DNA of 64,000 bases from Lachnospiraceae bacterium oral taxon 500 (GTDB taxonomy: Bacteria; Bacillota; Clostridia; Lachnospirales; Vallitaleaceae): the NCBI GenBank assembly GCA_002999035.1, contig CP027241.1, positions 1,553,001 to 1,617,000 of the forward strand, in the 5' to 3' direction. Positions 23,584-42,010 of the stretch are shown here, one piece after another (positions within the stretch are counted from its first letter, which is position 1; each line of letters starts with the position of its first letter). A model generated the notes under the pieces. The model had not been told where the DNA came from and did not search any database. It saw only the letters and a program-made list of their open reading frames with translations. Both the position numbers and the translations under genes were made by a program.

Positions 23584-23593
23584 GGAGGTTTTT

Positions 23594-25689: not shown

Positions 25690-25705
25690 GAAGGAGGCGA
25701 TAGCG

Positions 25706-26544: not shown

Positions 26545-27860
26545 AAGATTTTACCACAAACATTCGAAAAGTGACTAAAGCGGTCAGCCGACAAGGGTTT
26601 GGCTTAATTTTGCTTCTGGACATGGAGCACGAAGTGCCTTATACCATTTGTGGAAGTATGGCGGAGGTTGGAGAAGTCGTTCCGGTAGGAAGTAAGGCTT
26701 ATCAGATTGCTGGCCGTATTTTTGCGCAAAAGCCAAGGCCGGAGAAGTTAGCGATTGCAGGGAGCACCCAAAAAGAGTTTGTTGCTGGGACAAAAGGGAA
26801 ATACACTTTGACCATTGCGACCGAGTTTACAGACGGCGATATTATCAGCGTAAACGGAGTAAAATATACTTGCCGTGCTTCCGGTGCAGTGGCGGAGAAA
26901 AACGAGTTTAATAGCGGCACAAAGCAGGTTGAGGCGCAGGTATTAAAAGAACTGATAGAAAAAAATGAGACCAGCTTTTCTCTTTCTACTACAGCAGACA
27001 CCGTTGTTTTTACGCAAAAAATTGCAGCTATAGGAGAGATGCCTTTTGTCGAAGTTACTGGCAGCGGAAAAGCGAATATTGTTAAAACTATCTCCGGTGA
27101 AAAAGACAAAGGAATGATTGCCTTATTAACTGAGACAGCGCAAAAGCATAAAGATTTTTTCTTTTTAGTGTCAACGGAGAATGCGAACGAGGATATTCGG
27201 CAGCTCAGTGCATGGATTGATACGCAGGAAAAAATGTATTTTGTAACCAGCCAAAGTCTTTTAACACCAAAATTGCTTGCGTCGGAGCAAACGGTTGTTA
27301 TGTATCATGATAAAAATAATGCTTATGTTGCTGAAGGGCTGGCGGCTTACCTTGCCACTGCTAAAATCGGCGGAGTGACCGCTAAGTTTAAGACGATTGC
27401 AGGTGTAAGCGAAGCACAGATTTCAGAGACAGAGTTAGAGGAACTCCATAAAAATAACGGCTTTACCTATTTAGAAAAAATGGGTATTTTACAGACCAGC
27501 GAAGGAAAGACGACAAGTGGAGAGTATATTGATATCGTTTTGGGTTCTTTTTGGATTAAGGTTACAATGGATGCGGCAATGGCAAGTTTGGCTGCGCAGA
27601 CGGAAAAAATCAACTTCGGCAATGACGGGATTGCAAAAATGGTGGCGGTTTGCAAAAGCGTATTAAACCGAGCGGCGGAAGATCAAGGAATTATTGAAAA
27701 AGATGAAAACGGCAAGGGAGTCTTTGAAGTAAACTATCTGCCGAAAGAAAAAGTAGACGGAAATGACATTGCCAACCGCCGGTATCATCATGTAACATGG
27801 ACAGCCAAGTTGGCTGGAGCAATTCATACTGGCATCATTAACGGCACGTTAGAGTATTAG
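26541..27860 (+). CDS. Contractile tail sheath protein (DUF3383-like)
   Basis: A 439-residue protein with VTKAVSRQGFGLILLLDMEH near the start, and VNYLPKEKVDGNDIANRRY at the end as in DUF3383 sheath proteins. It lies before the tube gene. It shows that the phage has a contractile (myovirus) tail. AGGAGG precedes the ATG, and it overlaps the terminator gene by four bases. Confidence 0.88.
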   Translation: MKDFTTNIRKVTKAVSRQGFGLILLLDMEHEVPYTICGSMAEVGEVVPVGSKAYQIAGRIFAQKPRPEKLAIAGSTQKEFVAGTKGKYTLTIATEFTDGDIISVNGVKYTCRASGAVAEKNEFNSGTKQVEAQVLKELIEKNETSFSLSTTADTVVFTQKIAAIGEMPFVEVTGSGKANIVKTISGEKDKGMIALLTETAQKHKDFFFLVSTENANEDIRQLSAWIDTQEKMYFVTSQSLLTPKLLASEQTVVMYHDKNNAYVAEGLAAYLATAKIGGVTAKFKTIAGVSEAQISETELEELHKNNGFTYLEKMGILQTSEGKTTSGEYIDIVLGSFWIKVTMDAAMASLAAQTEKINFGNDGIAKMVAVCKSVLNRAAEDQGIIEKDENGKGVFEVNYLPKEKVDGNDIANRRYHHVTWTAKLAGAIHTGIINGTLEY

Positions 27861-27873
27861 GAAGGAGAAAACG

Positions 27874-28272
27874 ATGACTTACGATGTAGAAAAAGTAAAT
27901 GTTGTAGTCGGCGGCGTAGTACTAACGGGTTATGCCGAGGGCAGTATGGTATCAGCAGAAAGAAATGAAGACAGTGTGCTGCCACATGTCGGAACAAAGG
28001 GTGAAGTTGCTTATGCAGAGAATGCCGATCGGACAGGAAAGTTTACGGTAACCTTGGCAGAAACTTCCCCACATAATATATATTTAAACCGGTTAGCGAC
28101 TACAAAAAATTCGCAGGTTGATGTTGCAATTGTAAGCATGAATGATCATGCAGTGCAAGTAACTGGTACGAACTGCCGGGTATTAAAACCGGCGAACGTG
28201 GAAGTTGGCCGGGAAGTCGGCGAAAGAGAATATGAAATTTTTGCAGCAGTTATGAACTTTGAAGAAAAATAG
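27874..28272 (+). CDS. Tail tube protein (DUF3277-like)
   Basis: A 132-residue beta-rich protein (KVNVVVGGVVLTGYAEGSMV, then TAETSPHNIYLN-type stretches) directly after the sheath. Size and order match the inner tube of DUF3383-type tails. AAGGAG precedes the ATG. Confidence 0.85.
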   Translation: MTYDVEKVNVVVGGVVLTGYAEGSMVSAERNEDSVLPHVGTKGEVAYAENADRTGKFTVTLAETSPHNIYLNRLATTKNSQVDVAIVSMNDHAVQVTGTNCRVLKPANVEVGREVGEREYEIFAAVMNFEEK

Positions 28273-28283
28273 GAGGTTTTCGT

Positions 28284-28586
28284 ATGAAAATTGATGAAGC
28301 GTTCGGTTTTGAACAAAAAAAGATTTGTGTTGCCGGAAAGGAATATACTTTGCAGAATATTCCGCTAAAAGCAGTTTATCAAATGCAAGAGAGAGCAAAA
28401 GACAAAGATGGAAATATGAGACCATCCATTTTTTATGATGAAATTTTTGACAAAATTATTCTTTCGCCAAAAGTTTCCTGGGATGATTTTAGTGATGTCG
28501 AAGAACTGGAAGAACTCATGACAGAGGTGTATTCGTTTCTTACAAGGAACCGGAAAAGAAAGATGGAAGGCGAAAGCGAAGAGTAA
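28284..28586 (+). CDS. Tail assembly chaperone, G product
   Basis: A 100-residue protein between tube and tape-measure genes (EYTLQNIPLKAVYQMQERAK). It matches the usual tail assembly chaperone by place and length. AGGAGG precedes the ATG. The last 20 codons are Arg/Lys/Glu-rich, and the frame beyond is continued in another register by the frameshift extension listed next. Confidence 0.75.
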   Translation: MKIDEAFGFEQKKICVAGKEYTLQNIPLKAVYQMQERAKDKDGNMRPSIFYDEIFDKIILSPKVSWDDFSDVEELEELMTEVYSFLTRNRKRKMEGESEE

Positions 28587-28722
28587 TTGGCTGTTTTGGA
28601 AGTTGATATTTAGCGAAAAGTTTAGTTATGAAGAGGTTTCCCGCATGAGCTTTGCTGAGATTATGGAAGCACATGCGGCTCTTTTAATTTATGAAGATTT
28701 GCTGAAGAAGAAAGCAAAGTAG
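28522..28722 (+). CDS. Tail assembly chaperone frameshift extension (T segment)
   Basis: After the G stop at 28584-28586 the +1 (equivalently -2) frame is open from 28522 to TAG 28720-28722. It encodes WLFWKLIFSEKFSYEEVSRM and SFAEIMEAHAALLIYEDLL. It has no start of its own with a ribosome site. Programmed frameshifting to make G and GT proteins is conserved in tailed phages, and Mu uses a -2 shift. The slippage site must lie in 28522-28583; I cannot fix it. Confidence 0.65.
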   Translation, partial: QRCIRFLQGTGKERWKAKAKSNWLFWKLIFSEKFSYEEVSRMSFAEIMEAHAALLIYEDLLKKKAK

Positions 28723-28734
28723 GAAGGAGGCATT

Positions 28735-31359
28735 ATGGACGTTCGGGAAGTCAGTTTTCATATTGAGTTTACCGGGAGTTTTGAAGAACTTGCCAAAGCT
28801 GATAAAGCGGTGGATCAGTTTAAAAGCAATATGCAAAATCTGGGAAAGACGACGGATAATGCCTCTAAAGACATGGGAAAGGCGTTTGAGACTGTTTCCA
28901 AAGAAGCAAAAAAGGCCGGTCAAAGTACAGAAGAAGCAAAAAAAGAAGTCATTAGTCTAAAAAAAGACATTGCTAATTTTGTTAGCAGCAGTAAGATTAC
29001 CAAATTAGGGCAGTCAGTTAAAAGCAACATTGGAACTGCTTTTGAAAAAGCGACGGGAAAGGCCAAAGGAGCGCTGGAATCTTTTCGCACAAAGGCAGGG
29101 GAAAGCTTGTCAAAAGCCGCTTCCAAAAGTCGGCTTTTAACGGGAGCGCTAAACGACATCAAAGCAATCGGAACCAAGGCGGCGGATACAGTAAAGTCTA
29201 AGATGGACGCACTGGGAAAGACAGCGGCGCAGACTGGTGAAAAAATCGGACAGGCTTTTAAAAAGGCGGGCGAGGTTACGGATAAAATCGGGAGTACCCT
29301 AACGAATAAAGTAACCAAGCCAATTCTTGCGGCAGCTACGGGAGCCGGATTTTTGGGGATGCAGTATGAGCAGTCCATGGCGGAAGTACGGGCGATTTCC
29401 GGCGCAAGTATAGAGGATTTTGGAAAATTAAATGCCGCAGCGCGGGACGTTAGTGCGAATCCTCTTTTTTCTGCAAATGAAAAAGCGTCCGCCCTAAAGT
29501 ATATGGCCATGGCTGGCTGGGATGCGCAGCAGTCGATTGCCGGGCTTCCCAGTATTTTAAATCTGGCTACGGCCTCCGGGGAAGACTTGGGGAGCGTATC
29601 GGATATTGTGACGGACGCGATGACGGCCTTTAAAATGGCAGCAGAAGAAAGCGGCCGGTTTGCAGATGTTTTAGCCAAAGCCTCCAGCGTATCGAATACC
29701 AATGTGGCCTTATTAGGCGACACGTTTAAGTATGTGGCGCCGGTTGCGGGGGCGCTTGGCTATTCGGTGGAAGATACCGCTACGGCAGTTGGCCTGATGG
29801 CAAATCAGGGAATTAAGGCGAGCCAAGCGGGTACAGCGCTTAGAGCCGCTCTGGCTCAGTTAGCTGATCCGTCCGAGGAAACGGTAAAGGCAATGGAGGA
29901 ACTCGGAATATCCTTAGTAGATGACGCAGGAAATATGAAACCGTTGTCGGCGTTAATGGTAGACTTAAGGAAAGGCTTTTCCAATTTAAGCGAAGCGCAA
30001 AAAGCTCAGTATGCCTCTTCTGTTTTTGGCCGGGAAGCCATGTCGGGAATGCTTGCCATTATTAACAGTTCGGAAGCGGATTTTAATAAAGTGGGGAGCG
30101 CTATCCGAGACTCCGGCGGCGCGGCGCAGGAAATGGCTGATATCATGGGAGATACCGTGCAGGGTCAGCTTAAGGAGTTAAAAAATCGAGCGGTTGAACT
30201 TGGACTGCAATTTTTCGACACTTTTGGCAAGGACTTAAAAAACGCCTTGGATTCAGTGACAAAAAAACTGAAAGAAGGAATGACCGCCTTTTCTAAATTG
30301 GACAGTCAAACCAAAAAAAATATTGGGAAAATGATTGCCTTAGCGGCGGCGATTGGCCCAGTTGTAAAAGGACTGTCAGTAGTATTTAAAGTCGGTTCTT
30401 TTCTGGCTCCTCTTTTTGGTAAAATTGCAGGCGCGGCCGGGTCCGGCGGGCTTGGCGGGGCGGCAGCAGCATTGGGCATTGGGTTAGGGCCGTTGATTGG
30501 AATTATTGCAGGAGTGGCCGCAGCCGGCTATTTACTGTATAAGAACTGGGAAACGGTAAAGGCAAAGGGAATGGAGTTTATTGAAGCAATCAAAGCAAAA
30601 TTCTCTGAGTTTGGGCCGCATATTCAAAATTTGTTTTCCAATGTTCAAGTTATTTTAGGTGTGGTACTGCCGGTTGTAGAAGGTTTTTTTGGTGGGGTTT
30701 TACAAATGCTAGGGAAGTTGGCACTTGATTTTACGGATGTTATTGGTGGTGCAATTAAGCTCTTGTCCGGATTTACAGACTTTTTAGTGGGGGTCTTTAC
30801 CGGCGATTGGAGTAAAGCATGGGAGGGCGTTAAGAGTATATTTATCGGTACTTGGGAGATGATCTCCGGCGCACTTAGGGGTAGCATTAATTTTATCATC
30901 GGTGGAATCAATGCTTTTCTGTCCGGGTTAAATAAAATAAAACTTCCAGACTGGATACCGGGAGCGGGCGGAAAAGGAGTGAATATTCCTTTAATTCCTA
31001 CTTTTGCGCAGGGCGTTACTAATTTTAGCGGCGGTATGGCGATTGTAGGTGAGGAAGGCCCGGAGTTAGTTACCCTGCCAAGAGGCGCGAATGTATTTCC
31101 TAACCGAAATACAGAGCAAATACTTGGGAGCAACATGGTATCTTTTGAAAAAATGCTGTTGGAAAAAAGTCGATACTCGAATGATGCACTGGAAAGTGGC
31201 GGCACCTATACAACCAATAGAAATAACCGCAGCATAAAGTTTGCACCGGTAGTAAACATATACGGAGCCGGTGAAGGGCGGGAGATGGCGCAAATGGCAA
31301 AAGAAGAACTGCGCAAGCTCTGGGAAGAATTCATTGATGATGAGGACTTAGCGGGTTAG
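28735..31359 (+). CDS. Tape measure protein
   Basis: An 874-residue, helix-rich protein that sets tail length. The N-terminal 170 residues are coiled coil. Residues about 205-470 (VRAISGASIEDFGKLNAAAR ... GLMANQGIKASQAGTALRAA) match the TP901-type tape-measure domain. Two hydrophobic Gly/Ala segments lie near 560-600. The last part is a Gly-rich structural tail (FSGGMAIVGEEGPELVTLPR). AAGGAGG precedes the ATG. Confidence 0.92.
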   Translation: MDVREVSFHIEFTGSFEELAKADKAVDQFKSNMQNLGKTTDNASKDMGKAFETVSKEAKKAGQSTEEAKKEVISLKKDIANFVSSSKITKLGQSVKSNIGTAFEKATGKAKGALESFRTKAGESLSKAASKSRLLTGALNDIKAIGTKAADTVKSKMDALGKTAAQTGEKIGQAFKKAGEVTDKIGSTLTNKVTKPILAAATGAGFLGMQYEQSMAEVRAISGASIEDFGKLNAAARDVSANPLFSANEKASALKYMAMAGWDAQQSIAGLPSILNLATASGEDLGSVSDIVTDAMTAFKMAAEESGRFADVLAKASSVSNTNVALLGDTFKYVAPVAGALGYSVEDTATAVGLMANQGIKASQAGTALRAALAQLADPSEETVKAMEELGISLVDDAGNMKPLSALMVDLRKGFSNLSEAQKAQYASSVFGREAMSGMLAIINSSEADFNKVGSAIRDSGGAAQEMADIMGDTVQGQLKELKNRAVELGLQFFDTFGKDLKNALDSVTKKLKEGMTAFSKLDSQTKKNIGKMIALAAAIGPVVKGLSVVFKVGSFLAPLFGKIAGAAGSGGLGGAAAALGIGLGPLIGIIAGVAAAGYLLYKNWETVKAKGMEFIEAIKAKFSEFGPHIQNLFSNVQVILGVVLPVVEGFFGGVLQMLGKLALDFTDVIGGAIKLLSGFTDFLVGVFTGDWSKAWEGVKSIFIGTWEMISGALRGSINFIIGGINAFLSGLNKIKLPDWIPGAGGKGVNIPLIPTFAQGVTNFSGGMAIVGEEGPELVTLPRGANVFPNRNTEQILGSNMVSFEKMLLEKSRYSNDALESGGTYTTNRNNRSIKFAPVVNIYGAGEGREMAQMAKEELRKLWEEFIDDEDLAG

Positions 31360-31369
31360 GGGGAGGAGA

Positions 31370-31861
31370 ATGAATGCTTCAAAAATAGGCGAGGTCATTT
31401 TTACGGCAACGACAGAAGAAACGGTTAGTTATGAAAATGAAATTACAGAAAGGCCGGTAGAAGATTTGGGCTATATTTCCGATCATGTCAGGCAAAAGCC
31501 CATTAAGTTTAACGTATCGGGAGTTTTGGTAGGGGAAGAGGCGTTTTCTCGTTTGATGAAGTTAAGAGAGTACAGCAAAGGGAAAGAGACACTTCAGTAT
31601 TATGGGCGAAATGTCTTTTATAATGTGCTCATCGAAACACTTGAAACCGGACATAATAAGGAAACCCGGAATGGTTTTTCCTTTCATATGTCCTGTAAAA
31701 TCGTGCAACAGGCCGTAAAAAAGGAAATCATAAGAAACCAAGCCATTAACGCGCAAGTAAAGGAAGTTACTAAGCAAGGGAAGATTACGGTCATGCAAAA
31801 GCCGGTAACAAAAAAGAAGAAAGAAAGCATCATGCAAAAAGGAGCAAGGCAAGAAGAATGA
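31370..31861 (+). CDS. Baseplate distal-tail-like protein (Dit-like N-terminal domain)
   Basis: A 163-residue protein. Residues 15-115 have RPVEDLGYISDHVRQKPIKF and the beta-barrel plan of the Dit-like N-terminal family seen after the tape measure in contractile phages. The C-terminal 40 residues are Lys-rich. Its stop overlaps the next start by four bases. Confidence 0.7.
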   Translation: MNASKIGEVIFTATTEETVSYENEITERPVEDLGYISDHVRQKPIKFNVSGVLVGEEAFSRLMKLREYSKGKETLQYYGRNVFYNVLIETLETGHNKETRNGFSFHMSCKIVQQAVKKEIIRNQAINAQVKEVTKQGKITVMQKPVTKKKKESIMQKGARQEE

Positions 31862-32214
31862 AGGAAATAGAACTGGAAGAAAAACAAAGGGAAGAAATAT
31901 CATATCTTCCTTTTCCCAAGGGAAAAATCCCATGCGAGGCGGAGTTCGATTATCAGGGACAGAGTTTTCTTTTGGTCTTTTTTTATAACGAAGCGTATGA
32001 TTTTTTTACTGCCGACTTATATCGACTGGAAAATATGGAAAAAAAGCCGGTTAAGTTAGGGGAAAAGATCGTGTTAAATCAAAGGCTGTTTGAGATAGAA
32101 ACCGAATTAGACCGGAGTTTGCCGGTAATTGTGCCGGCGGCGTTTTTTGAAGAGAGAAAGGCGGCCAATTGGGAAAGCATGGGAAATGGAGTAGAACTGG
32201 TGGTGATAGAATGA
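31858..32214 (+). CDS. Baseplate plug-like protein
   Basis: A 118-residue beta-rich protein (CEAEFDYQGQSFLLVFFYNE) between the Dit-like and hub genes, the slot of phage baseplate plug proteins (DUF6983 type). It overlaps neighbours by four bases on each side, so coupling is strong. Confidence 0.65.
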   Translation: MKEIELEEKQREEISYLPFPKGKIPCEAEFDYQGQSFLLVFFYNEAYDFFTADLYRLENMEKKPVKLGEKIVLNQRLFEIETELDRSLPVIVPAAFFEERKAANWESMGNGVELVVIE

Positions 32215-33008
32215 TTTTTAACCGCAGAGCGCAAATACGGCTGGGACGCTTGGAATATGAAAGCGAAACGCTGGACTTTGATTTTTTTGTTCCTTTTTCT
32301 ACAGAAATGGAGCCGGATATATCAGAAATATCCCTGTATAATCTATCTCCGCAAACCATTGCGGAAATAAAAAAAGGAATGCCCGTGGAACTTTTTGCCG
32401 GGTATGGGGAAGATATGGGCCTTTTGTGTTTGGGAGAGGTCTTAAATTACAGCACAAAAAATGAGAATGTTGATAGAAAAACAACGTTAAAGGTTGGAAG
32501 CGGCGCGGCAGCGTGGGCGGAGATGGAGATTAATAAGACTTATGCGGCCGGGATAACTTCACAGCAGATTTTACAGGATTTACTAAAGAATTATAACCTT
32601 ACTGTTGCTGATATTACATTAAAGCATAACGTCAAGCACAGAAAGGCCAGAACGCTTAGCGGCAAGTTAAAAAATATTATTCAAAAAATTGCTAAGGAAA
32701 CGGAAACAAAAATTTATATCAATCAAGAAAGAGTTTTTGTTCGGCCAACGGAAAAAGGGGACAACAAGGACTTTTATTTATCGGGAGCAACTGGTCTTTT
32801 GGGAAGCCCGGAAAGGTGCGAAGTTTCCGAAGGGGAGACAAGGAAAGAAGGGTATAAAATTCAATGCCTTTTGAATCACCAGATCACAACGGACAGAATT
32901 GTTGTAATTCAGTCCCAAATGGCAGAAGGTAGTTTTAGAGTAGTAAAGGGAAGCCATAACAGCAGGGAATATATAACAGAAATGGAGGTGCTGCCATGGC
33001 AGGCTTAG
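32211..33008 (+). CDS. Baseplate hub protein (gpD/XkdQ-like)
   Basis: A 265-residue protein with the plan of late-control gpD/XkdQ hub proteins: a beta-rich N-terminus (RRAQIRLGRLEYESETLDF), IAKETETKIYINQERVFVRP in the middle and a C-terminal barrel. I chose ATG 32211, which overlaps the previous stop (ATGA). It connects the tube to the spike. Confidence 0.75.
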   Translation: MIFNRRAQIRLGRLEYESETLDFDFFVPFSTEMEPDISEISLYNLSPQTIAEIKKGMPVELFAGYGEDMGLLCLGEVLNYSTKNENVDRKTTLKVGSGAAAWAEMEINKTYAAGITSQQILQDLLKNYNLTVADITLKHNVKHRKARTLSGKLKNIIQKIAKETETKIYINQERVFVRPTEKGDNKDFYLSGATGLLGSPERCEVSEGETRKEGYKIQCLLNHQITTDRIVVIQSQMAEGSFRVVKGSHNSREYITEMEVLPWQA

Positions 33009-33277
33009 CAAAATTTGTCAATAAAAAAATAGAAGAAAAATTAGGAGCAATTCATACCCTTTTCTTAGGCAAAGTGGTGGCAGTAAATCCGCTGATTATC
33101 TTACCGCTTTTCGGGAACAAAACACAAGTGGAAAAGCCGATGCTATTGGGAAGTGCGGTTTATGAAGTTGGAGACATTGTGCTTTTAGGTGTTTTGCAAG
33201 AGTATGCGGAGGGTGGCATAACGCGAAGATTTGATTTATCAGATGCAGTAGTCTTAGGGAAGGTATTTAATTTATGA
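32996..33277 (+). CDS. Baseplate spike-region protein (Gp138 N-terminal-like)
   Basis: A 93-residue OB-like beta protein (HTLFLGKVVAVNPLIILPLF) directly after the hub. Its place and size match the Gp138 N-terminal/DUF2577 group of spike proteins. It overlaps the hub by 13 bases and the next gene by four. Confidence 0.65.
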   Translation: MAGLAKFVNKKIEEKLGAIHTLFLGKVVAVNPLIILPLFGNKTQVEKPMLLGSAVYEVGDIVLLGVLQEYAEGGITRRFDLSDAVVLGKVFNL

Positions 33278-33633
33278 AAGATTTACAGGTAAAGGGGAAT
33301 GACCTTGTGCTGGAAAATGGGGATTTTAAAATAATATCAGGAGAGGATGAGATTTTGCAGTCCTTAGAAAGGATATTGACAACGAGAAAGGGCGAATGGT
33401 TTTTAAATGAAGAGATAGGCCTTGATTATTCGGAATTAGAAAAGAAAGAAGTCGACCAGGAACTGCTGCGGCTTTCTGTTATAGAAGCGGTATTGCAGGA
33501 AGAAAGAGTGCAGGAGGTTTTGGATTTAATAATCGAATGGGACAGGGCTAAAAGAGCGTTAAAACTAAGTTTTAATCTGGTTTTAAAAGGGAAAGGTGAT
33601 TTGTATGGCGGGCATTACGAAGTTTGGCTTTGA
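33274..33633 (+). CDS. Baseplate wedge protein, gp25/DUF2634-like
   Basis: A 119-residue protein of the T4 gp25-like lysozyme-fold group, with EILQSLERILTTRKGEWFLN at residues 27-46, the family's strongest motif, and LDYSELEKK after it. It forms part of the baseplate wedge. It overlaps the gpJ-like gene by 29 bases. Confidence 0.82.
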   Translation: MKDLQVKGNDLVLENGDFKIISGEDEILQSLERILTTRKGEWFLNEEIGLDYSELEKKEVDQELLRLSVIEAVLQEERVQEVLDLIIEWDRAKRALKLSFNLVLKGKGDLYGGHYEVWL

Positions 33634-34762
33634 GAGAAAACGATATGCGGATATTGAAAAAGAAATGTTCCTTTCCGCAAAAGAAAAATGGGGAGAAGAA
33701 ATCAATTTATCGGAAAAAAGCGCACTGGGGATATTGCTGCGGATTTTTGCGTGGAGCATTGCCAAAATCTGGCAATTAGGGGAATCTATTTATTTTCAAT
33801 CCTTTCTTCGATATGCTGAAGGAATTCAACTGGACTATATTGCGGAAAGAGGTGGGATAAAAAGATTCCCAAAAGCAAAGTCTAAAGGTAAGCTGATCAT
33901 TCGTGGGAATACAGGGAAAGAAGTTTATCGTGGATTTCAAGTACGAACAGAAAGCGGAAAGGAATATCAGGTAACAAGGCCGGGTGTTATTTCGGAAAAC
34001 GGAACGGTTGTTCTTCCGGCAGAAAGCCTGCTATGTGGCTCAGAGCAAAATGCAGAGGTTGGAGAAATAACGATAGTCAGTTATCCAGAGACGGGGATTA
34101 CTTCAGTAACAAATGAAGAAGCATTCGTGGGTGCAAGAGAAGAAGAAACGGATGAAGAATTAAGACGCCGATATAAGGCGGGTTTAAAAAACAAAGGAAA
34201 ATCAACGATTGCTGGCATTGAAAAGCGGATTTTAGAAAATCCTTCCGTAAAGAGTGTAATCATTGAAGAAAACGACACGGAAACGGCGAATTACGGTATA
34301 CCAGCGCATGGAATCCGGGTGATCGTGCAGGGCGGAAGCGATGAGGAAATTGCCAGAGCGATTTTGGAGTCGAAAGCGGCCGGTATTAGCACGGCGGGCG
34401 CTGTGGCGGTAACGATACAGGATAACAAAGGAAAAAGCCGGGTAGTGCGGTTTCAAAGAACGACAGCAATCATGGTTTATGCGGTGATTAGACTGTCTTT
34501 TTATTTGGGCGTAGAAAATAAAGAGCAGCTAAAAGAAAAAGTACAAACGGATGTTTTAAATTATTTGTTGGGGCTTTATGCAGGGGAAGATATTGTAGTT
34601 AGCCGGTTAGTATCCCTTGTTATGGGAAATAAGGAAATTAAGGACGCGGCGGTCAAAATCGGCAAAACAGAGCAAAGTTTGGAAGCAAAAAATATTGTAT
34701 TAGCCGAGGGCGAGACCGTTATCACGGACAAGGGGAAAGTGAAGGTGAGCGATGACCTTTAA
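33605..34762 (+). CDS. Baseplate protein J-like
   Basis: A 385-residue baseplate J/gp47-like protein. Family stretches include ADIEKEMFLSAKEKWG, RYAEGIQLDYIAERGGIKR near residue 75, and FVGAREEETDEELRRRY near 180. GAAAGG precedes ATG 33605; an upstream GTG (33596) is possible. It builds the wedge ring that triggers sheath contraction. Confidence 0.9.
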   Translation: MAGITKFGFERKRYADIEKEMFLSAKEKWGEEINLSEKSALGILLRIFAWSIAKIWQLGESIYFQSFLRYAEGIQLDYIAERGGIKRFPKAKSKGKLIIRGNTGKEVYRGFQVRTESGKEYQVTRPGVISENGTVVLPAESLLCGSEQNAEVGEITIVSYPETGITSVTNEEAFVGAREEETDEELRRRYKAGLKNKGKSTIAGIEKRILENPSVKSVIIEENDTETANYGIPAHGIRVIVQGGSDEEIARAILESKAAGISTAGAVAVTIQDNKGKSRVVRFQRTTAIMVYAVIRLSFYLGVENKEQLKEKVQTDVLNYLLGLYAGEDIVVSRLVSLVMGNKEIKDAAVKIGKTEQSLEAKNIVLAEGETVITDKGKVKVSDDL

Positions 34763-35279
34763 AGAAATATGGCAGCGACTTCCTCAAAATTACAGAAAAG
34801 TAAGCGGTAATATGGAAAAACTATTAAGGGTGATTAGCGAGCAGTTTTATTTTGCCGCCTCAATGCTGCGCAGTTTATCAAGTTTGCCTTCCCTTGAAAA
34901 AGTAAGCGGTCAGACTTTAGATCTTTTGGGGGAAGAAGAAGGAACGGATCGAAATGGAAAAAGCGACGAGGAGTTTAAGCAAGTCATTCGGTTTCAAATT
35001 GCTTCCAAGGACAGAGGAGAGGATATCCATTCTCTTAATTCAGCGCTTGATTTTTATTTGCAAGCGGATTTTGTTGAAATCATAGAAGGCGACGCCAAGA
35101 TAATCGTTGTGGCCGGCCGTTTTTTAACGGCAGAAGAAAAGAGAAAAATCAAAACTTTGGCGGCTGCCGGAGTAGGAGTTGACTTTAAAACGCAGCATAC
35201 TCTATATCCAGCGAAGGGGAAGACAAAAAGTATCTGTTTAAGCGGGGAAGAGACAAAATTAGAAACCAGAAAGGGGTAA
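34752..35279 (+). CDS. Tail protein I-like (DUF2313/YmfQ-like) baseplate protein
   Basis: A 175-residue protein after the J-like gene, with LDLLGEEEGTDRNGKSDEEF and KQVIRFQIASKDRGEDI, typical of the YmfQ/gpI group. It would join the wedge to the fibre. It overlaps the J gene by 11 bases. Confidence 0.75.
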   Translation: MTFKEIWQRLPQNYRKVSGNMEKLLRVISEQFYFAASMLRSLSSLPSLEKVSGQTLDLLGEEEGTDRNGKSDEEFKQVIRFQIASKDRGEDIHSLNSALDFYLQADFVEIIEGDAKIIVVAGRFLTAEEKRKIKTLAAAGVGVDFKTQHTLYPAKGKTKSICLSGEETKLETRKG

Positions 35280-35282
35280 AAA

Positions 35283-36224
35283 GTGGCGCAGGAATTTTAT
35301 ACCATAATTACTAAGATTGGGCAGGAGAAATTGGTCAGTGCAACAACCGGGCAAAAATTAGAATTTTACCAGTTTGCGGTTGGCGATGGAAATGGGAGAT
35401 ATTATGAGCCAATGGTTTCTCAGTATGCGTTGGTTAATGAAAAGTATCGCGCGAACACAAATGCAACCACGATCGAAGAAAACAGAATTACCATTGAATG
35501 CCTGATACCGGCGCATATCGGCGGATTTACGATTCGGGAAATTGGCATTTTTGATAAGCAAGGAAGTTTGGTTTTAGTTGGGAAATATCCGCAAACGGAA
35601 AAACCGGTTGATTCATTCGGCGGATTAAAGGATCTTTATATCAAGGTTCAGCTTGAGGTGGATAACCCGGAAACGATTGCTATGACAGTAGACCCCAATG
35701 TGGTTATTGTAACCAAACAAAACTTGAATCAGGAGCTATCAAAGTATTTAAAGAAGAACGAAACTGTGAATGATCTGGATTCGTCTGACAAGGATAGACC
35801 GCTGTCAGCCGCGCAAGGGAAGCGGCTGAATGAAAATAAGCTGGGGATAACAGAAAAGGCCGCCGACAGCGATAAGCTGGATGGACAAGACTGCACTTAT
35901 TTTGCAACATCGCAAAAAGCGGACAGTCTGGAAACACAGATTGAGCAGCTGCGGGCGGACATCCAGAATCTTACCCAGCAATTGAATAATAAAGCGGATA
36001 AAAATATGATTACAGCCATTCATTTACCCAGTGTAACTCAAGCATGGATTACAAATGCAGGAATGATTGAAACACAAGTGATTTTTGGCAGAACCGAAAA
36101 AGTTATGCAAAACATTGATGGTATTCCAATTTATGGGCAAAATGGGCAAACAGTTCAAGTGTCTGTTGGTATGCATGCGTTGATGTATAGCAAGACGGAT
36201 CAACGATTTTACTTGATTTTTTAA
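35283..36224 (+). CDS. Tail fibre protein with invertible C-terminus
   Basis: A 313-residue fibre. Residues 1-150 are the phage tail-collar/DUF3751 fibre N-terminal domain (FYTIITKIGQEKLVSATTGQ, IGGFTIREIGIFDKQGSLVL). A coiled coil with NNKADKN follows at 235-241. The last 72 residues are encoded between 22-bp inverted repeats and can be exchanged for the silent version at 36221-36463. The start is GTG 35283. The gene carries the host-recognition tip in its variable end. Confidence 0.88.
   Translation: MAQEFYTIITKIGQEKLVSATTGQKLEFYQFAVGDGNGRYYEPMVSQYALVNEKYRANTNATTIEENRITIECLIPAHIGGFTIREIGIFDKQGSLVLVGKYPQTEKPVDSFGGLKDLYIKVQLEVDNPETIAMTVDPNVVIVTKQNLNQELSKYLKKNETVNDLDSSDKDRPLSAAQGKRLNENKLGITEKAADSDKLDGQDCTYFATSQKADSLETQIEQLRADIQNLTQQLNNKADKNMITAIHLPSVTQAWITNAGMIETQVIFGRTEKVMQNIDGIPIYGQNGQTVQVSVGMHALMYSKTDQRFYLIF
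35984..36005. repeat. Left 22-bp inverted repeat of the fibre switch
   Basis: gaataataaagcggataaaa plus at, inside the fibre coding frame (NNKADKN). It is perfectly complementary to 36464-36485. It marks the left crossover of the invertible 502-bp segment. Confidence 0.88.
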
Positions 36225-36463
36225 AAATTTACCCATTCCGTCCAAGGACCATTATTGATTTTGTGCCGCCGTTGATATTGGCCATTTGTATTCCGGCGTT
36301 CCTGCCAAATCCAGTTGTCAATATTATTATGTTCCTGATTGGATGAGTTTTGTACTGTTAAAACTCCATAGCCAAAACCGGTTTCTAATCCGAATGTGTA
36401 CCAGCCTGTTTTCAGGCATTCATCAAAGTTTTTTGTCCATCCGTGATAAATGAATGTATTAGC
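36221..36463 (-). other. Silent alternative tail-fibre C-terminus
   Basis: Read on the minus strand in the frame set by the inverted repeat, this encodes an 80-residue fibre tip: ANTFIYHGWTKNFDECLKTG, a middle with GYGVLTVQNSSNQEHNNID, and an end QRRHKINNGPWTEWVNF then TAA. It has no start codon or ribosome site, and a TAG lies just beyond the repeat. It differs wholly from the active tip. Inversion of the segment would fuse it in frame to the fibre stem. Confidence 0.85.
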
Positions 36464-36485
36464 ATTTTTATCCGCTTTATTATTC
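36464..36485. repeat. Right 22-bp inverted repeat of the fibre switch
   Basis: The exact reverse complement of 35984-36005. It lies 56 bases before the recombinase ATG (36542) and marks the right crossover. Confidence 0.88.
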
Positions 36486-36506
36486 TAAAGCAGGCGAAAG
36501 ATGGCA

Positions 36507-36515
36507 TGCTATAAT
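36507..36515 (+). promoter_or_regulatory. Extended -10 promoter for the fibre recombinase
   Basis: TGC-TATAAT gives a TGn extended -10 element 27 bases before ATG 36542. No convincing -35 is present. It lies just outside the invertible segment, so recombinase expression would not depend on its orientation. Confidence 0.5.
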
Positions 36516-36541
36516 CATTGCAAAAAGGAGATAAAGAGGCA

Positions 36542-37516
36542 ATGATTAAGCTATCAGATGAGATTTACAGGGCAATTAAGAAGTTTACCAATCTAAGCAG
36601 GGGGGAGTTTAAGCAGCTAACGAGAGAGGTGATGGAAAAATATGAGATAATCCCCAAAAAAGAACAAAAGGAATATCAGTTGTTGGTTTTGCTGGAAAAA
36701 TTTCTGTTCTCTTTACGGACGGAAAAGAAGTCAGAAAAAACGATTGATGGTTATCGATTGCAGATTACGAAGTTCAGCGAAAGAGTAAATAAGGATATTC
36801 GCCGGATAAGTACAGACGACATCCGGGAATACATCAGCTATTTGGTCAATACCAGAAAGAACGCAGATGGTACAATTAATAATTACCTGCATATTTTGCA
36901 AAGCTTTTTTAAGTGGTGCATCGTAGAAGGCTATCTTAGCCAAAATCCCATTGCCAGAATAAAAATCAATAATTTTAAACCAAAAAGAAACAGGGTAGGA
37001 TTAGATGGTGAGAAGCTGGAAGCGGTCAAATATGCTTGCGAGGATTTGCGGGAAAAGCTGATTATTGAATTATATGTTTCTACTGGTTGTCGGTTATCGG
37101 AAATTGCAGAGATAGACGTTAAGGATATAAATCAAAAAGAGCGCAGCATTGAGGTAATTGGGAAAGGGAATAAGAAAAGAACTGTATTTTGCAGTGAAAA
37201 ATGCAAGTTATTAATAGAAGAGTATATGAAAAAAGAAGCAATTACGGATGGAGCGCTGTTACGAAGTAATAAAAAGCCGCATGGGCGGCTAAAGCCATCG
37301 GCAATCCAATCTATTATCAAAGAAATTGGCGAAAGAACCAATATTAAGCTATATCCGCACTTGTTGCGGCATACTTTCGCAACAAATAGCCGGAAGCATG
37401 GAATGAGTTTGGAAACTATTCAAATCTTGCTTGGCCATGCAAGTATAACAACAACGCAGATATATGCTAAAGAAGATATGGAAAAGATAAAAAACGAGTA
37501 TAACAGGATAGCATAA
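36542..37516 (+). CDS. Tyrosine recombinase, probable tail-fibre DNA invertase
   Basis: A 324-residue XerC/D-like recombinase. The core-binding domain is residues 45-140 (LRTEKKSEKTIDGYRLQITK). The catalytic domain has STGCRLSEIAEIDV (Arg), YPHLLRHTFATNSRKHGM (H-x-x-R) and LLGHASITTTQIYAKED (His and nucleophilic Tyr). All catalytic positions are present. The gene starts 57 bases outside the right repeat. It is expected to invert the fibre segment. Mu uses a serine invertase, Gin, in the same role. I chose ATG 36542 over TTG 36518. Confidence 0.88.
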   Translation: MIKLSDEIYRAIKKFTNLSRGEFKQLTREVMEKYEIIPKKEQKEYQLLVLLEKFLFSLRTEKKSEKTIDGYRLQITKFSERVNKDIRRISTDDIREYISYLVNTRKNADGTINNYLHILQSFFKWCIVEGYLSQNPIARIKINNFKPKRNRVGLDGEKLEAVKYACEDLREKLIIELYVSTGCRLSEIAEIDVKDINQKERSIEVIGKGNKKRTVFCSEKCKLLIEEYMKKEAITDGALLRSNKKPHGRLKPSAIQSIIKEIGERTNIKLYPHLLRHTFATNSRKHGMSLETIQILLGHASITTTQIYAKEDMEKIKNEYNRIA

Positions 37517-37585
37517 AGCATTTTTAATATGTGAGAAGACACGTTGAAGACGTGTCTTCTTGTCATGCTGAGGAAGGAAAAGAGA

Positions 37586-37888
37586 ATGAAAAAACTGTTA
37601 ATATGCATTGAAGAATTACAAAATGAGAAACCGAAAATGATAGAATCCCGCTTACTGATAGAGAGCGGGGCGGTGAAATGGAAAGTGATAGATAACCCAC
37701 CAGTGATAGAAGACCGGCCCGGTGAAGTTGGGAAATATGACATTAACGAACAAGGAGAAATCATGGTTCGTTATGAACAGCGGGAAAAAACGGAAGCGGA
37801 AAAACTGAAAGAAGAAATCCAAGAAATCAAAAAAGAGCAGCTTGACATGATGGAAGCATTGGCAGAAATGAAGGAAGGCGGTGCGTAA
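37586..37888 (+). CDS. Phage fibre-region protein with coiled-coil end, unknown
   Basis: A 100-residue protein (KKLLICIEELQNEKPKMIES) with a C-terminal coiled coil rich in Glu/Lys. It sits after the fibre recombinase, where fibre chaperones or small tail proteins are found. AGGAAGG precedes ATG 37586. Confidence 0.55.
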   Translation: MKKLLICIEELQNEKPKMIESRLLIESGAVKWKVIDNPPVIEDRPGEVGKYDINEQGEIMVRYEQREKTEAEKLKEEIQEIKKEQLDMMEALAEMKEGGA

Positions 37889-37949
37889 GATGAAAGATAG
37901 ATTACTTCTATTTCTCATAAAAATACTATTGAGGGAAGGGGGTGAAGAA

Positions 37950-38108
37950 ATGGTGTGGCGTGATATTTATGTGAAATTAATTATCGCGAAGCGGAGAACC
38001 ATCGACAAAATCAAGGATCCGGCTCTGAAGCAGTTAGTTTTAGAGGATTTGAAAGAACTTGGTTTTGATGGTTACGGCAATCCGCTGCCGGAACTGGCGG
38101 AAGAATAA
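37950..38108 (+). CDS. CD1375-like small phage protein
   Basis: A 52-residue protein (DIYVKLIIAKRRTIDKIKDP ... LGFDGYGNPLP). Short proteins with RTID and YGNPLP are common in Clostridia phages after tail genes, and their role is unknown. GAAGGGGGTG precedes ATG 37950. The frame is open further up, and ATG 37890 with a hydrophobic N-terminus is an alternative. Confidence 0.65.
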   Translation: MVWRDIYVKLIIAKRRTIDKIKDPALKQLVLEDLKELGFDGYGNPLPELAEE

Positions 38109-38169
38109 GGCATAATGGCATGGGGCGGCGGCAGCTGCCCCATAGTCAAAAAAGAGGGAGGATTGATAC

Positions 38170-39420
38170 ATGGAAGAAACAATCAGAGTGAGCGAGCAAA
38201 TTTTTGGTGCGCTTCCGTCTAATAGAAGTCCAAAAGATTTTCCGGTTTTGGCGGAAAGCGGAATCACCTTAGAAGTGGCTTATAAGCCGGAGAACATTGA
38301 AACCATATTGAATATGGTTATGTATAATCAGCTGCTTTCCGGTAGCTGTGTCGGGCAGGCGCTGGCCAAGGCAAAATCTTTGCTGGAGTATATTCAGAAC
38401 CCGGACAATATATTTTTGTTCAGCGGCTGGTTTTTATGGATGAACCGGCCAAAGAATATTAGCTACTTGCTGGACACGGAAGGAACATCACTAAAAGATC
38501 AGGCCGAAAAGCTGGTCGAGGATGGTGTTTGTTTTCTGGCGCAATATGACTTAAACCCTAAGCAGACAAGTGAGCGCATTTCCTACAAGGACAATAAAGA
38601 TAAGTTCTATAGGGAAGTACGGCCAGCGCTGTTAAATTCGGCTGCTGGGTACAAGGCAGATAAATACCTTTTTCCAGAAACGGAGTTAGAAATTAAGCAG
38701 GCGATTAAAAAGCTTGGGTGTGTCTGTATCTGCATTCCCTTGTATCCATCGTTTAGCTTTGTCCAGAGCAATGGGATTATTCCCAACCCGCAAGACGGTG
38801 AAAGCTTAAAGGGCTTTCATACCATGCTAATTTATGGCTGGGACGATAGTAAGGCCGTTTGGTACGGCCATAATTCTTACGGCCGAGGTTGGGGAAAGAA
38901 CGGCTTTTTCACCATTCGGAAAGATTACCCGATCAAGGAATATGTCGCGATTGCCGATGACAGCTTACTTCATTGGGCGGACAAATATTTTTACTTCCTT
39001 TGGAAGAAGGGTGTGACGCTGCATGAACGGAACTTTGACCGGAACATTAGCCGGGGTGAAACAATGGCTATTTTGGCCAGAGTGCTGGCGGGCGGAGATA
39101 AGAATGTGTTCCCTGTGATAAACGCTGAACATTGGGCTGACAAGTATTTCAAATATCTTAACAGCCACGGCTGCAAGGTATTTGAAAAGAATTACGACAA
39201 TAAAGTTACACGCGGCGAGTTTATGACTTTGCTTTACCGAATGCTTAACAAAAATGACGCGACTGACGTGCTGCCGAAAAAGGGCGGACATTGGGCGGAA
39301 GCGTATTTTGAAGCACTGCAAAAAAGAGGAATAACAATCCATGAAAAGCGCTTTGACGACTGTATTACCAGAGGTGAAACAATGGCGCTGGTAAGCCGGG
39401 CGTTAGGCTACAAAAAATAG
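38170..39420 (+). CDS. Papain-like cysteine protease with three SLH repeats
   Basis: A 416-residue protein. Residues 20-260 are a C1A papain-like peptidase: catalytic Cys in SGSCVGQALAKAKSLLEYIQ, His in GFHTMLIYGWDD, Asn in GHNSYGRGWGKNGFF. Residues 265-416 hold three S-layer-homology-like repeats (HWADKYFYFLWKKGVT, HWADKYFKYLNSHGCK, HWAEAYFEALQKRGIT). No signal peptide is seen. In a phage lysis region it may cut wall-bound proteins or the S-layer. GGGAGG precedes the ATG. Confidence 0.85.
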   Translation: MEETIRVSEQIFGALPSNRSPKDFPVLAESGITLEVAYKPENIETILNMVMYNQLLSGSCVGQALAKAKSLLEYIQNPDNIFLFSGWFLWMNRPKNISYLLDTEGTSLKDQAEKLVEDGVCFLAQYDLNPKQTSERISYKDNKDKFYREVRPALLNSAAGYKADKYLFPETELEIKQAIKKLGCVCICIPLYPSFSFVQSNGIIPNPQDGESLKGFHTMLIYGWDDSKAVWYGHNSYGRGWGKNGFFTIRKDYPIKEYVAIADDSLLHWADKYFYFLWKKGVTLHERNFDRNISRGETMAILARVLAGGDKNVFPVINAEHWADKYFKYLNSHGCKVFEKNYDNKVTRGEFMTLLYRMLNKNDATDVLPKKGGHWAEAYFEALQKRGITIHEKRFDDCITRGETMALVSRALGYKK

Positions 39421-39432
39421 AGAGGATTAGCA

Positions 39433-39684
39433 ATGGGAAATAATGAGTTTCAAGAACTTTGCAAAGAACAAGTTGCAGCATACCATAACGAGCGTTTTGA
39501 AACGAAAATTTCAAAAGGAAATGTGTATGTGGTGTGGTTATGCAAGGTATTGCAAAACAATAAAGCGCTGCTAAGTACAACACTTTCGGACGGTATGTAT
39601 TATGAGGTCACTCATAATGAGGACAAAAAGGAATTGTACTTTGACGCGTACAAGAAACAGGAAAATATCAAGATTGACTTATAG
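39433..39684 (+). CDS. DUF6275-like phage protein
   Basis: An 83-residue protein with KISKGNVYVVWLCKVLQNNK and LSDGMYYEVTHNEDKKELYF, characteristic of the DUF6275 phage family found beside endolysin genes. Function unknown. It is 12 bases after the protease and 9 bases before the amidase. Confidence 0.75.
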   Translation: MGNNEFQELCKEQVAAYHNERFETKISKGNVYVVWLCKVLQNNKALLSTTLSDGMYYEVTHNEDKKELYFDAYKKQENIKIDL

Positions 39685-39693
39685 GAGGCAATA

Positions 39694-40476
39694 TTGAAAA
39701 GAATTGTACTTGATATCGGCCATGGGCAAAATACTTTTCCGCCTTCAAAAGGCGTTTATTTTGACGGGGAGTCTTTGACAGGAAGACCGACAAGCAAATG
39801 GTTTGAAGAATACGACTTTAATTCAAAAGTTGCTATACTAGCAAGAGAAAAATTAAAAGAATATGACATTGAAGTTTTGTTTACGCAACAGCCGAGTGCA
39901 GATGATGTACCACTTAATGCAAGAATTAATATGGCGAACAAATGGCATAAAGAACAAGCAATTAATCTGCTGGTTTCAATTCATGCCAACGCTCATTATC
40001 CAGGAAGTTCCGCGAAAGGGTATGAGTCGTATTACTGGCAAGGTGACGAAGCGGGGGAAAAATTTTGCGGGTTGTGGCACAGATGCATGAAAAACACTGG
40101 AATGGTTGACCGAGGGATTAAAGTATCAAGCAATTTAAAAAATGCTTGGTATATCATCAGAAAAAGCCCTTGTACAGCAGTTTTGTTAGAACATTTCTTT
40201 TACACTAACTATGCCGAATTGATAAAATTTACAAAACCGGAATGGATTGAGGTTTTGGCAGACAATCTTGTAAATGCAATCATTGAATATTTCAAACTGA
40301 GTAGGAATGAGAAAAAAAAGAACACCCTAACAGTTAATATTAACGGCATTGAAAAAGAAATGGATTTTATTGTAAAGGATAACAGGAACTTTGTATCCAT
40401 TCGGGAAATTGCCGAAAGCTTAGGGGCCGCCGTGGAATGGGACAATGTAAATAAAAAAGTATTAATCAGCAAATGA
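39694..40476 (+). CDS. N-acetylmuramoyl-L-alanine amidase (endolysin)
   Basis: A 260-residue Amidase_3 enzyme. Zinc ligands are recognisable in LDIGHGQN (His), the Glu region and SIHANAHYP (His), with VLLEHFFYTN near the end of the domain. The last 50 residues (VNINGIEKEMDFIVKDNRNF) form a copper amine oxidase-like wall-binding domain. It cleaves the amide between MurNAc and the stem peptide. The start is TTG 39694 after AGGAGG. A holin follows. Confidence 0.88.
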   Translation: MKRIVLDIGHGQNTFPPSKGVYFDGESLTGRPTSKWFEEYDFNSKVAILAREKLKEYDIEVLFTQQPSADDVPLNARINMANKWHKEQAINLLVSIHANAHYPGSSAKGYESYYWQGDEAGEKFCGLWHRCMKNTGMVDRGIKVSSNLKNAWYIIRKSPCTAVLLEHFFYTNYAELIKFTKPEWIEVLADNLVNAIIEYFKLSRNEKKKNTLTVNINGIEKEMDFIVKDNRNFVSIREIAESLGAAVEWDNVNKKVLISK

Positions 40477-40489
40477 GGAGGTAAAAATT

Positions 40490-40696
40490 ATGAAAATTGA
40501 TTGGAAAAGAAAATTAACAAGCAGAAAGTTTTGGCTATCGGTTGCGGGATTTGTAACTTTAGTTATGATCGCATTAGGTCAAGACAAAAGCCAAGCGGAA
40601 CAAATTGCTGCAATTATTATGGCAGGGGCAACAGTGGTAGGATATACCCTTGGTGAGGGGCTGGCAGACAGCAGACCGATTGAACCAGAAGAATAA
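40490..40696 (+). CDS. Holin
   Basis: A 68-residue protein with a basic start, a hydrophobic segment (FWLSVAGFVTLVMIALG), a second (IAAIIMAGATVVGYTLGEGL) and an acidic tail. This is the size and plan of small phage holins that permeabilise the membrane. It lies 13 bases after the amidase. Confidence 0.8.
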   Translation: MKIDWKRKLTSRKFWLSVAGFVTLVMIALGQDKSQAEQIAAIIMAGATVVGYTLGEGLADSRPIEPEE

Positions 40697-40747
40697 TTCA
40701 AGGGTAGAAAAACGAAAAGGGGTATTGCGAAATATCCCTTTTAAAAG

Positions 40748-40767
40748 CGTTTAAATGGTATTAAAAT
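40748..40767. repeat. CGTTTAAA site near the prophage right end
   Basis: CGTTTAAATGGTATTAAAAT matches the left-end 20-bp motif (CGTTCAAA-n5-ATTAAAAT) in the same orientation. It lies in the 101-bp gap between the holin and the methylase. A role as a transposase or regulatory site is inferred. Confidence 0.4.
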
Positions 40768-40797
40768 AATAGTTAGACAGCATAGGAGGACTGGAAT

Positions 40798-41541
40798 ATG
40801 AATAGTTTTATTAGTTGGATTGGCGGGAAGAAGTTATTAAGAAAGCAGATAATAAGTCAGTTTCCCAAGGAAATGGATAGGTACATAGAGGTATTTGGAG
40901 GAGCGGGCTGGGTTTTATTTGGAAAGGCAAAAGGCCGTGAATTAGAAGTGTTTAATGATATTGATGGAGAGTTGATCAATCTATATCGCTGTGTAAAGTA
41001 TCATTGTAAGGCGTTGCAGGAAGAATTGGCATATTCTTTATCATCAAGAGAAATCTTTTATACGGATAAGGAACGAATAAGGGTAAAAGGAACAACAGAT
41101 ATTCAAAGGGCTGCGGCCTATTTTAGACTAATAAGGACAAGCTTTGGCTCAGATAGAAGAAGTTTTAATACGAGTTCCAGAAGACTATCCGATAAAATTG
41201 AGTATCTATCAGAAATTAGCCAAAGATTGGAATCTGTAGTGATTGAAAATAAGGATTTTCAAAATTTAATTGAAGTTTATGACAGAAAAAATGCGTTGTT
41301 TTATCTTGATCCACCCTATTACAAAAGTGAAAAATATTATGATGAGGAATTCGGGGAACACGACCATATAAGATTGTTTGAAACGCTTAAAAAGATAAAA
41401 GGGAAATGGATTCTTTCCTATAATAATCATGATAGGATTAAAGAAATATACCGGGAGTTTCAAATCGTAGAAATAAACAGGTTCAATAACCTGTCTAACA
41501 AAAATAGGGAATATAAGGAGTTGCTTATCAAGAATTATTAA
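40798..41541 (+). CDS. DNA adenine methyltransferase (Dam/D12 class)
   Basis: A 247-residue N6-adenine methyltransferase. The SAM-binding motif I is at WIGGKKLLRKQI (residues 5-16), EVFGGAGWVLFG follows, and the catalytic DPPY is in FYLDPPYYKSEKYYD. It probably methylates phage or host DNA against restriction. Mu carries its DNA-modification gene mom at the same end. Lower GC than the morphogenesis genes. Confidence 0.9.
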   Translation: MNSFISWIGGKKLLRKQIISQFPKEMDRYIEVFGGAGWVLFGKAKGRELEVFNDIDGELINLYRCVKYHCKALQEELAYSLSSREIFYTDKERIRVKGTTDIQRAAAYFRLIRTSFGSDRRSFNTSSRRLSDKIEYLSEISQRLESVVIENKDFQNLIEVYDRKNALFYLDPPYYKSEKYYDEEFGEHDHIRLFETLKKIKGKWILSYNNHDRIKEIYREFQIVEINRFNNLSNKNREYKELLIKNY

Positions 41542-41647
41542 AGTGTATTTTTTTTATGATATAAATAACCAATAAAGTTATATTATAACAAAAACACATT
41601 TTAAATATCACAAAATGATATCATCATTTGGTAGGAGGTACTAAGTG

Positions 41648-41911
41648 ATGATAAAGATACATCTATCAAAGCTGCTTGGAGAAAGGAAGATGAGCCAAAA
41701 AGAACTTGCGCAGCTAACCGGAATAAGGCCAAATACAATTTCGGAATATTATCATGAGTTGACGGGAAAATTTGAGCAGCTGGATTTGATATGTGAAGCG
41801 TTAAATTGCAGTGTAAGCGACATTCTTGAGTATATTCCAAATCAGCAAAAAAGGACTGGTGAGCATAGGATTATTGAGCAGCACGGCAACAGAAAGAGCA
41901 TAGAAAAATGA
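41648..41911 (+). CDS. XRE-family HTH regulator
   Basis: An 87-residue protein. Residues 5-65 are an HTH (LLGERKMSQKELAQLTGIRP). GTAGGAGG precedes ATG 41648 (GTG 41645 also possible). Its terminator ends at the proposed phage terminus. It may control the neighbouring methylase. Confidence 0.78.
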   Translation: MIKIHLSKLLGERKMSQKELAQLTGIRPNTISEYYHELTGKFEQLDLICEALNCSVSDILEYIPNQQKRTGEHRIIEQHGNRKSIEK

Positions 41912-41937
41912 CTGAAATTTCTTCTATGCTCTTTTTT
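41896..41937 (+). terminator. Intrinsic terminator at the prophage right end
   Basis: GAGCATAGAA (41896-41905) pairs with TTCTATGCTC (41922-41931), followed by TTTTTT. It ends the HTH-gene transcript just inside the right terminus. Confidence 0.8.
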
Positions 41938-41972
41938 ATTTTGCGTGTCAGATTTTTTTGATTTGCGCGTCA
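41929..41972. other. Proposed prophage right terminus, two tandem end motifs
   Basis: On the minus strand, TGACACGCAAAATAAAAAAG (from 41950) and TGACGCGCAAATCAAAAAAA (from 41972) are near-identical units 22 bp apart. The first matches the left-end TGACACACATAATACAAAAA (7133). Transposase sites beginning with TG at each end are expected in Mu-like phages. Which unit is the true end is undecided. Confidence 0.45.
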
Positions 41973-41976
41973 AGCA

Positions 41977-42010
41977 ACAGTAAATCAAAAAAGGTTTACT
42001 GTTTTTCTTT
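41977..42010 (+). terminator. Recurrent CAGTAAATC-type terminator, copy 1
   Basis: ACAGTAAATC pairs with GGTTTACTGT, followed by TTTTTCTTT, 32 bases before the DUF3847 gene. Related hairpins stand at 44677, 47613, 50856, 52350 and 58452, each before or after a gene module of the mobile elements. Confidence 0.65.

Follow-up and report, generated by a model that had tools for sequence, protein, structure and literature searches.

In phages Mu and P1, the Gin (G segment) and Cin systems give two-state inversion of the tail fibre in a transposing phage; the invertase gene adjoins the invertible segment, and the G segment of Mu is about 3 kb. A prophage of Lachnospiraceae bacterium oral taxon 500 carries a much smaller segment with the same layout, in which the 3' end of the fibre gene lies between inverted sites together with an in-frame alternative, and the gene next to it encodes a tyrosine recombinase. 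Does a Mu-like phage here switch its fibre with an enzyme of that family? We analysed the 64,000 nucleotides that contain the locus (hereafter the window). On the sequence evidence, we consider it very likely that the locus is a two-state tail-fibre switch of a Mu-like prophage, worked by the adjacent tyrosine recombinase, and the switch probably still works. The features, in window coordinates, are:

7126..41979, + strand: Mu-like prophage of 34,854 bp with ends TGTAATC...GCAACA, delimited by comparison with the genome's second prophage
9449..11428, + strand: MuA-like transposase (Pfam Mu-transpos_C, E 9.4e-9; HTH_Tnp_Mu_2, E 2e-7)
11502..12416, + strand: AAA ATPase in the MuB position (Pfam AAA_22, E 1.2e-15)
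33596..34762, + strand: baseplate J protein (Pfam Baseplate_J, E 4.9e-18)
34752..35279, + strand: baseplate protein between J and the fibre (phrog_4056 baseplate protein, E 1.4e-12)
35283..36224, + strand: tail-fibre gene in its current orientation, 313 aa (Pfam Phage_tail_fib, PF12571, E 1.1e-42; phrog_1780 tail collar fiber, E 9.1e-58)
35984-36005, + strand: left inverted repeat, from the identity of the two repeat copies; putative crossover site, coding for fibre residues N-N-K-A-D-K-N
36006..36221, + strand: tip A, 72 residues, joined to the fibre in the present orientation
36224..36463, - strand: tip B, 80 residues, silent; in frame with the fibre once the segment is inverted
36464-36485, - strand: right inverted repeat, from the identity of the two repeat copies
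36507..36515, + strand: extended -10-like TGCTATAAT before the recombinase, found by eye; the consensus scan is negative here
36542..37516, + strand: tyrosine recombinase, presumed invertase, 324 aa (Pfam Phage_integrase, E 5.8e-35)

The sequence-only reading had called the phage Mu-like, and this is supported by the MuA-type transposase, by the AAA ATPase, which we take to be MuB from its position, and by homologues of Mu F and Gp27. The genome holds a second prophage, at the contig ends of G000:C1, with clustered 1-bp indels and without the part that matches window 25370-29829; the many 1-bp indels and the missing stretch mark the assembly end near it as low in quality. We take it as a true second copy because its early region matches the window prophage, in pieces, at no more than 84-98% identity. 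Where a Mu-like phage would have a 5-bp target-site duplication, the flanks are TCTTG and GTAAA; each is present in two copies, one of them at the other prophage. This splitting of the pairs suggests either that recombination has exchanged the right ends of the two prophages, which lie in opposite orientations, giving a chromosomal inversion, or that the assembly is mis-joined. Outside the prophage, the window also carries a tetracycline-resistance ribosomal protection gene of the TetM/TetW/TetO/TetS family (54123-56042), in a region with a large serine recombinase (45056-46726) and, by eye, relaxase-like ORFs.

The invertible segment is bounded by two copies of GAATAATAAAGCGGATAAAAAT, identical at 22/22 bases, and measures 502 bp with its repeats, exactly as first read and borne out to the base. 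When a 21-base core of the repeat is sought with at most 3 mismatches, the window yields two matches, which are the pair itself, and each of 100 dinucleotide shuffles yields 0. Elsewhere in the genome, at the same tolerance, the repeat occurs as the second prophage's pair and as one 3-mismatch site in an unrelated 813-codon ORF. Residues 1-241 of the fibre are the constant part, common to both orientations. In-silico inversion of the segment preserves the frame, giving a 321-aa fibre in which the tip of 80 residues replaces that of 72. The claims that the alternative tip on the reverse strand is in frame but lacks a start, and that the two stop codons meet at 36221-36224, also hold: the stops overlap in TTAA, and a program-made ORF list has no ORF of at least 50 aa with an ATG, GTG or TTG start in silent tip B.

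These properties bear on a reading to which we give almost no credence, that tip B is a separate small gene or a chance open frame and the repeats merely shared coding sequence. The repeat does code for a fibre stalk motif that could be duplicated for protein reasons, but tip B offers no start that would give at least 50 aa, its stop abuts that of tip A, and the repeat is identical at the DNA level. Among 20,000 first-order Markov resamplings of the tip B stretch, 365 (1.8%) keep an 80-codon frame open, and by phage codon usage only its own frame scores positive among the six, for tip A and tip B alike. Tip B also resembles parts of phage proteins: it matches phrog_33092 (function unknown) at E 1.7e-7, and it shares 44% identity, across 77% of the query, with part of a gene of Streptococcus phage Javan64 that was deposited as "capsid and scaffold protein" and adjoins a tail gene. 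Tip A has no match in the phages database, a DNA-level search of that database with the locus gives none, and searches of 295 genomes with either tip match their own genome only. The predicted structure of tip B is weak (pLDDT 64.4) and has no match at E 0.001 in either structure library; influenza hemagglutinin, its best match in a sequence search of solved structures (E 0.0035), we judge to be chance.

The recombinase is an Xer-like tyrosine recombinase with an intact frame and all its catalytic residues, complete as the sequence-only reading had it. We take its start as ATG 36542, 57 bases outside the right repeat; TTG 36518 would give 332 aa. It consists of SAM-like and Phage_integrase domains (Pfam), and a domain search finds no match to an arm-type domain. 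It scores above the cut-off of the XerA-type NCBIfam model (232.5 vs 220) and far below those of the models for XerC, XerD and tyrosine-type DNA invertases. Residues R184, K208, H273, R276, H299 and Y308 (the R, K, H-x-x-R, H, Y set) are invariant in a six-sequence alignment. The promoter of its own that had been proposed shrinks to the extended -10 alone: a consensus scan does not call TGCTATAAT, and the 3 promoter-like sites that it does find are no more than chance would give (2.4 on average in shuffles).

Could this gene be an ordinary phage integrase, or serve another site, with any inversion made by another recombinase? The integrase family is generic, relatives act in HsdS loci or occur in other contexts, and the available text of PMC6109161 describes a second Bifidobacterium prophage inversion without a flanking recombinase. 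We nevertheless regard this as highly improbable. A Mu-like phage moves by its transposase and needs no integrase, and the gene lies immediately downstream of the fibre, upstream of an amidase-type lysis gene, and not at a phage end. The genes tested beside it are the tail fibre, a papain-like peptidase and the amidase, with no Methylase_S, unlike the HsdS shufflers. Moreover, a recombinase directly follows the fibre also in the related loci L047, L048-L050, L072 and L113.

Under the two-state switch, the adjacent Xer-like recombinase would bind the two inverted 22-bp sites, on which we infer that it acts, and would invert the 502-bp segment between them. One orientation would join the 241-residue constant part to tip A, and the other would join it to tip B. 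Since the stalk-tip junction (NNKADKN) is encoded by the site itself, the frame would be kept in either orientation; the recombinase gene lies outside the segment and would therefore be untouched by the flip. The two tips would presumably bind different receptors.

A flipped copy of the locus was not found in the genomes and phage sets searched, and the two prophage copies of the genome share one fibre orientation. This is what a relic would give, a once-working switch now locked in its present orientation, but we find a relic improbable. Both tips are open and codon-typical, the repeats are identical to the base, and the recombinase frame is open with every catalytic residue present. Besides, the two prophages are identical across their last 7,986 aligned bases and so count as little more than one sample. 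Of the switch mechanism that had been read from the sequence, the anatomy stands, and relatives supply the same layout and one natural case of opposite orientation, while inversion of the locus itself is unseen.

To place the locus among relatives, we searched genomes and viral contigs. Counting the genome itself, 92 of 295 related genomes match the recombinase at E 1e-20, the best non-self match being 38% identical; counted likewise, a class-wide draw of 391 genomes yields 9 with a match at E 1e-45, in varying gene contexts. In the viral contigs, an alignment search gives 65 relatives. Single-sequence scans of viral_contigs with the window's fibre or recombinase find no relative, and those with L072 and L047 find little or nothing beyond themselves. 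We scanned for repeats upstream of the recombinase in a set of 69 loci, made up of these 65, the window and three phage records. Upstream DNA is lacking in 7 of them, leaving 62; with 15 shuffles per locus, the maximum shuffled score was 15. Repeats just upstream of the recombinase score 19-105 in eight of the 62: the window, L047, L048, L049, L050, L086, L052 and L070, the last an identical duplicate of L052. Two loci at score 16 were rejected as switches, their repeats being insertion-element ends, and the remaining 52 score at most 15, within the range of the shuffled controls. Neighbouring ORFs were examined in 18 of the 61 non-window loci.

In all seven repeat loci tested (L070 being covered by L052), in-silico inversion yields in-frame alternative tips. 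The viral-contig recombinases beside such repeats are 32-41% identical to that of the window. In L047, L048, L049, L050, L086 and L113, a recombinase comes just after a fibre tip that lies between inverted repeats and has an in-frame alternative; the contigs of L049 and L113 begin inside the fibre. L113, like L114 below, comes from a further scan outside the 62-locus set. The sequence-only reading would have looked in related prophages for the same repeat, silent tip and recombinase; the layout is there in viral contigs, but the 22-bp repeat has no exact match in viral_contigs. MuA was found in none of the five records of L047, L048, L050, L052 and L086, which may be fragments.

L047 has the window's surroundings, with baseplate J upstream and a D12 methylase downstream, and four sites coding for LGNKAN or nearly so, with four tips. 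As a locus in its own right (2106-5906) it is a four-site, four-tip fibre shufflon, and its recombinase is the closest to the window's by identity in the tree set. The L114 fibre shares 32% identity with the constant part of the window's fibre along 152 residues and carries, as its only repeat, an 11-bp matching site at LSNKVN/SNKAN. The sites of the window, L047 and L114 have TAATAARGYGRAY in common, at the same protein motif, and shared protein sequence may be the cause of these shared letters.

L049 and L050 provide the natural inversion. Their flanks of 222 bp and 3,664 bp are collinear at 93-94% identity, with L049 1-222 and 1284-4939 matching L050 in direct order, and L049 250-693 matches L050 5797-5354 in reverse at 95% identity, the inverted piece being 445 bp. 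It follows that one tip, which we call X, is attached to the L049 fibre but silent in L050. The silent tip of L049 is the joined tip of L048 and L113 (77% and 76% identity). The remaining tips differ between L049 and L050; exchange of cassettes has thus taken place as well. This inversion is between relatives about 94% identical and not within one clone, and homologous recombination could explain it, since the repeats lie in a repetitive coding stretch.

Several other candidates were rejected. An apparent inversion between L068 and L069 is in fact a 1.9-kb insert whose ORF reads, by eye, like an IS transposase. L052/L070 has two tip cassettes and 19-bp repeats, but its left cassette is not joined to a fibre constant part. 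The 13-bp in-frame repeats of L072 are chance by length alone (13 vs shuffled 14), as are those of L099, which has no match in the upstream-repeat layout because its sites flank the recombinase on both sides. A scan for 10-bp repeats with open frames proved too permissive, returning 57 of 72 loci against 12 of 72 for reversed sequence, a control that also breaks coding frames. As separate observations, L099 4181-7601 holds a fibre with L-N-S-D sites on either side of the recombinase, which would thus lie inside the invertible stretch, and in Terrisporobacter phage TPELB_ph1 (L041) an annotated "integrase" (5809-6804) lies between a large hypothetical, possibly fibre, gene and a holin. That phage has a second annotated integrase at 8693-10276, and the repeat scan finds no inverted repeat above chance in L041; the first integrase is a candidate for a mis-named invertase.

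Related recombinases also work in a different setting. Sixteen loci are labelled HsdS, 14 among 30 loci returned from related genomes plus two phage records; a Methylase_S neighbour is present in 16/16, in place of a fibre, and several of these recombinases, 30-37% identical to the window's, lie beside inverted repeats. L015, L016, L018, L019, L024, L027 (from the genome's own taxonomic order), L042 and L043 (phage records) have dense inverted repeats beside related recombinases; considered as fibre shufflons, they proved to be HsdS loci. All of these except L027 show several inverted copies of a TAAAYRATMATTTA-like repeat among Methylase_S genes, and the TAAAYRATMATTTA-repeat loci are probable phase-variable type I restriction loci.

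A quick maximum-likelihood tree was built from 75 of 93 recombinases, leaving out 18; in it, a group with SH-aLRT 99 contains seven rows: the window, L047, L048, L049, L050, L012 and L074. It takes in five of the seven labelled fibre-repeat recombinases, with L086 and L052 outside. The 16 HsdS recombinases fall in one separate group, together with L014, L025 and L046. One branch separates the seven fibre-repeat rows from the HsdS rows, counting these two labels only; 52 unlabelled rows lie among and around them. Neither L012 nor L074 shows a fibre or repeat alongside, L074 being cut by the contig end. The window's placement is tentative, because its own end branch is long and these two members have no visible fibre switch.

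How new is such a switch? Tyrosine recombinases that switch phage fibre or receptor-binding genes are already in print. The available portions of PMC6109161 and PMC8778435 describe Rin, which switches receptor-binding genes in prophages of Bifidobacterium (PMC6109161) and Eggerthella lenta (PMC8778435). As in the window, a phage-encoded tyrosine recombinase lies beside the receptor-binding-protein or fibre gene, short sites stand at the junction of constant and variable parts, and alternative C-termini are inverted; Rin lacks an arm-binding domain, to which the window's recombinase gives no match. The Bifidobacterium system, as far as the same text of PMC6109161 covers it, uses an 11-bp repeat, TTCCCTAACCC, with several variable cassettes, whereas the window has two tips and one 22-bp pair in a Mu-like phage; a layout of three or more cassettes is absent here, as a search that tolerates 3 mismatches finds two sites in the window and no more. 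In the part of PMC6471424 available, Int1 inverts a tail-fibre module in the haloviruses PhiCh1, PhiH1 and ChaoS9. This too is a tyrosine recombinase that inverts fibre-coding DNA and changes the expressed copy, but the viruses are archaeal and the recombinase lies between two oppositely oriented fibre genes. We liken the window recombinase to Rin and Int1 by their published descriptions. A review of archaeal tyrosine recombinases, in its available text, cites the PhiCh1 inversion paper (PMC8371274), and a survey of bacterial inversions, likewise in its available text, reports prophage inversions around tail fibres in 4 Proteobacteria species (PMC5903667). Gin, according to PMC6109161, is a recombinase of the serine family, in contrast to the tyrosine recombinase here. 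No Mu-like phage with a tyrosine-recombinase switch is among the matches listed in the open-licence literature, and a search there for the adhesin switch of a Methanobrevibacter provirus gives no paper. Thus the proposal that a tyrosine recombinase in this role is a distinct solution is weakened by Rin and Int1; the novelty lies in a Mu-like phage with a minimal layout of two tips, like that of Gin, together with its kin.

A broader proposal, which we hold to be evenly balanced, is that bacterial phages have a lineage of armless Xer-like recombinases dedicated to switching tail-fibre tips. Their sites would place the core TAATAARGYGRAY in the codons of the stalk-tip junction (N-K-A/V-N/D), where any tip could be swapped in frame, and in this prophage the enzyme would do the job of Gin, to which it is unrelated, so that one function and layout would be reached with a different chemistry. 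The locus suggests that either family of recombinase can serve in a fibre switch of the Mu type. With two tips, and with sites and an enzyme of a size that permits direct testing, the system is compact, and it directs attention to a group of related phages arranged in the same way. For annotation the locus carries a warning, as "integrase" calls beside phage fibre genes may be invertases.
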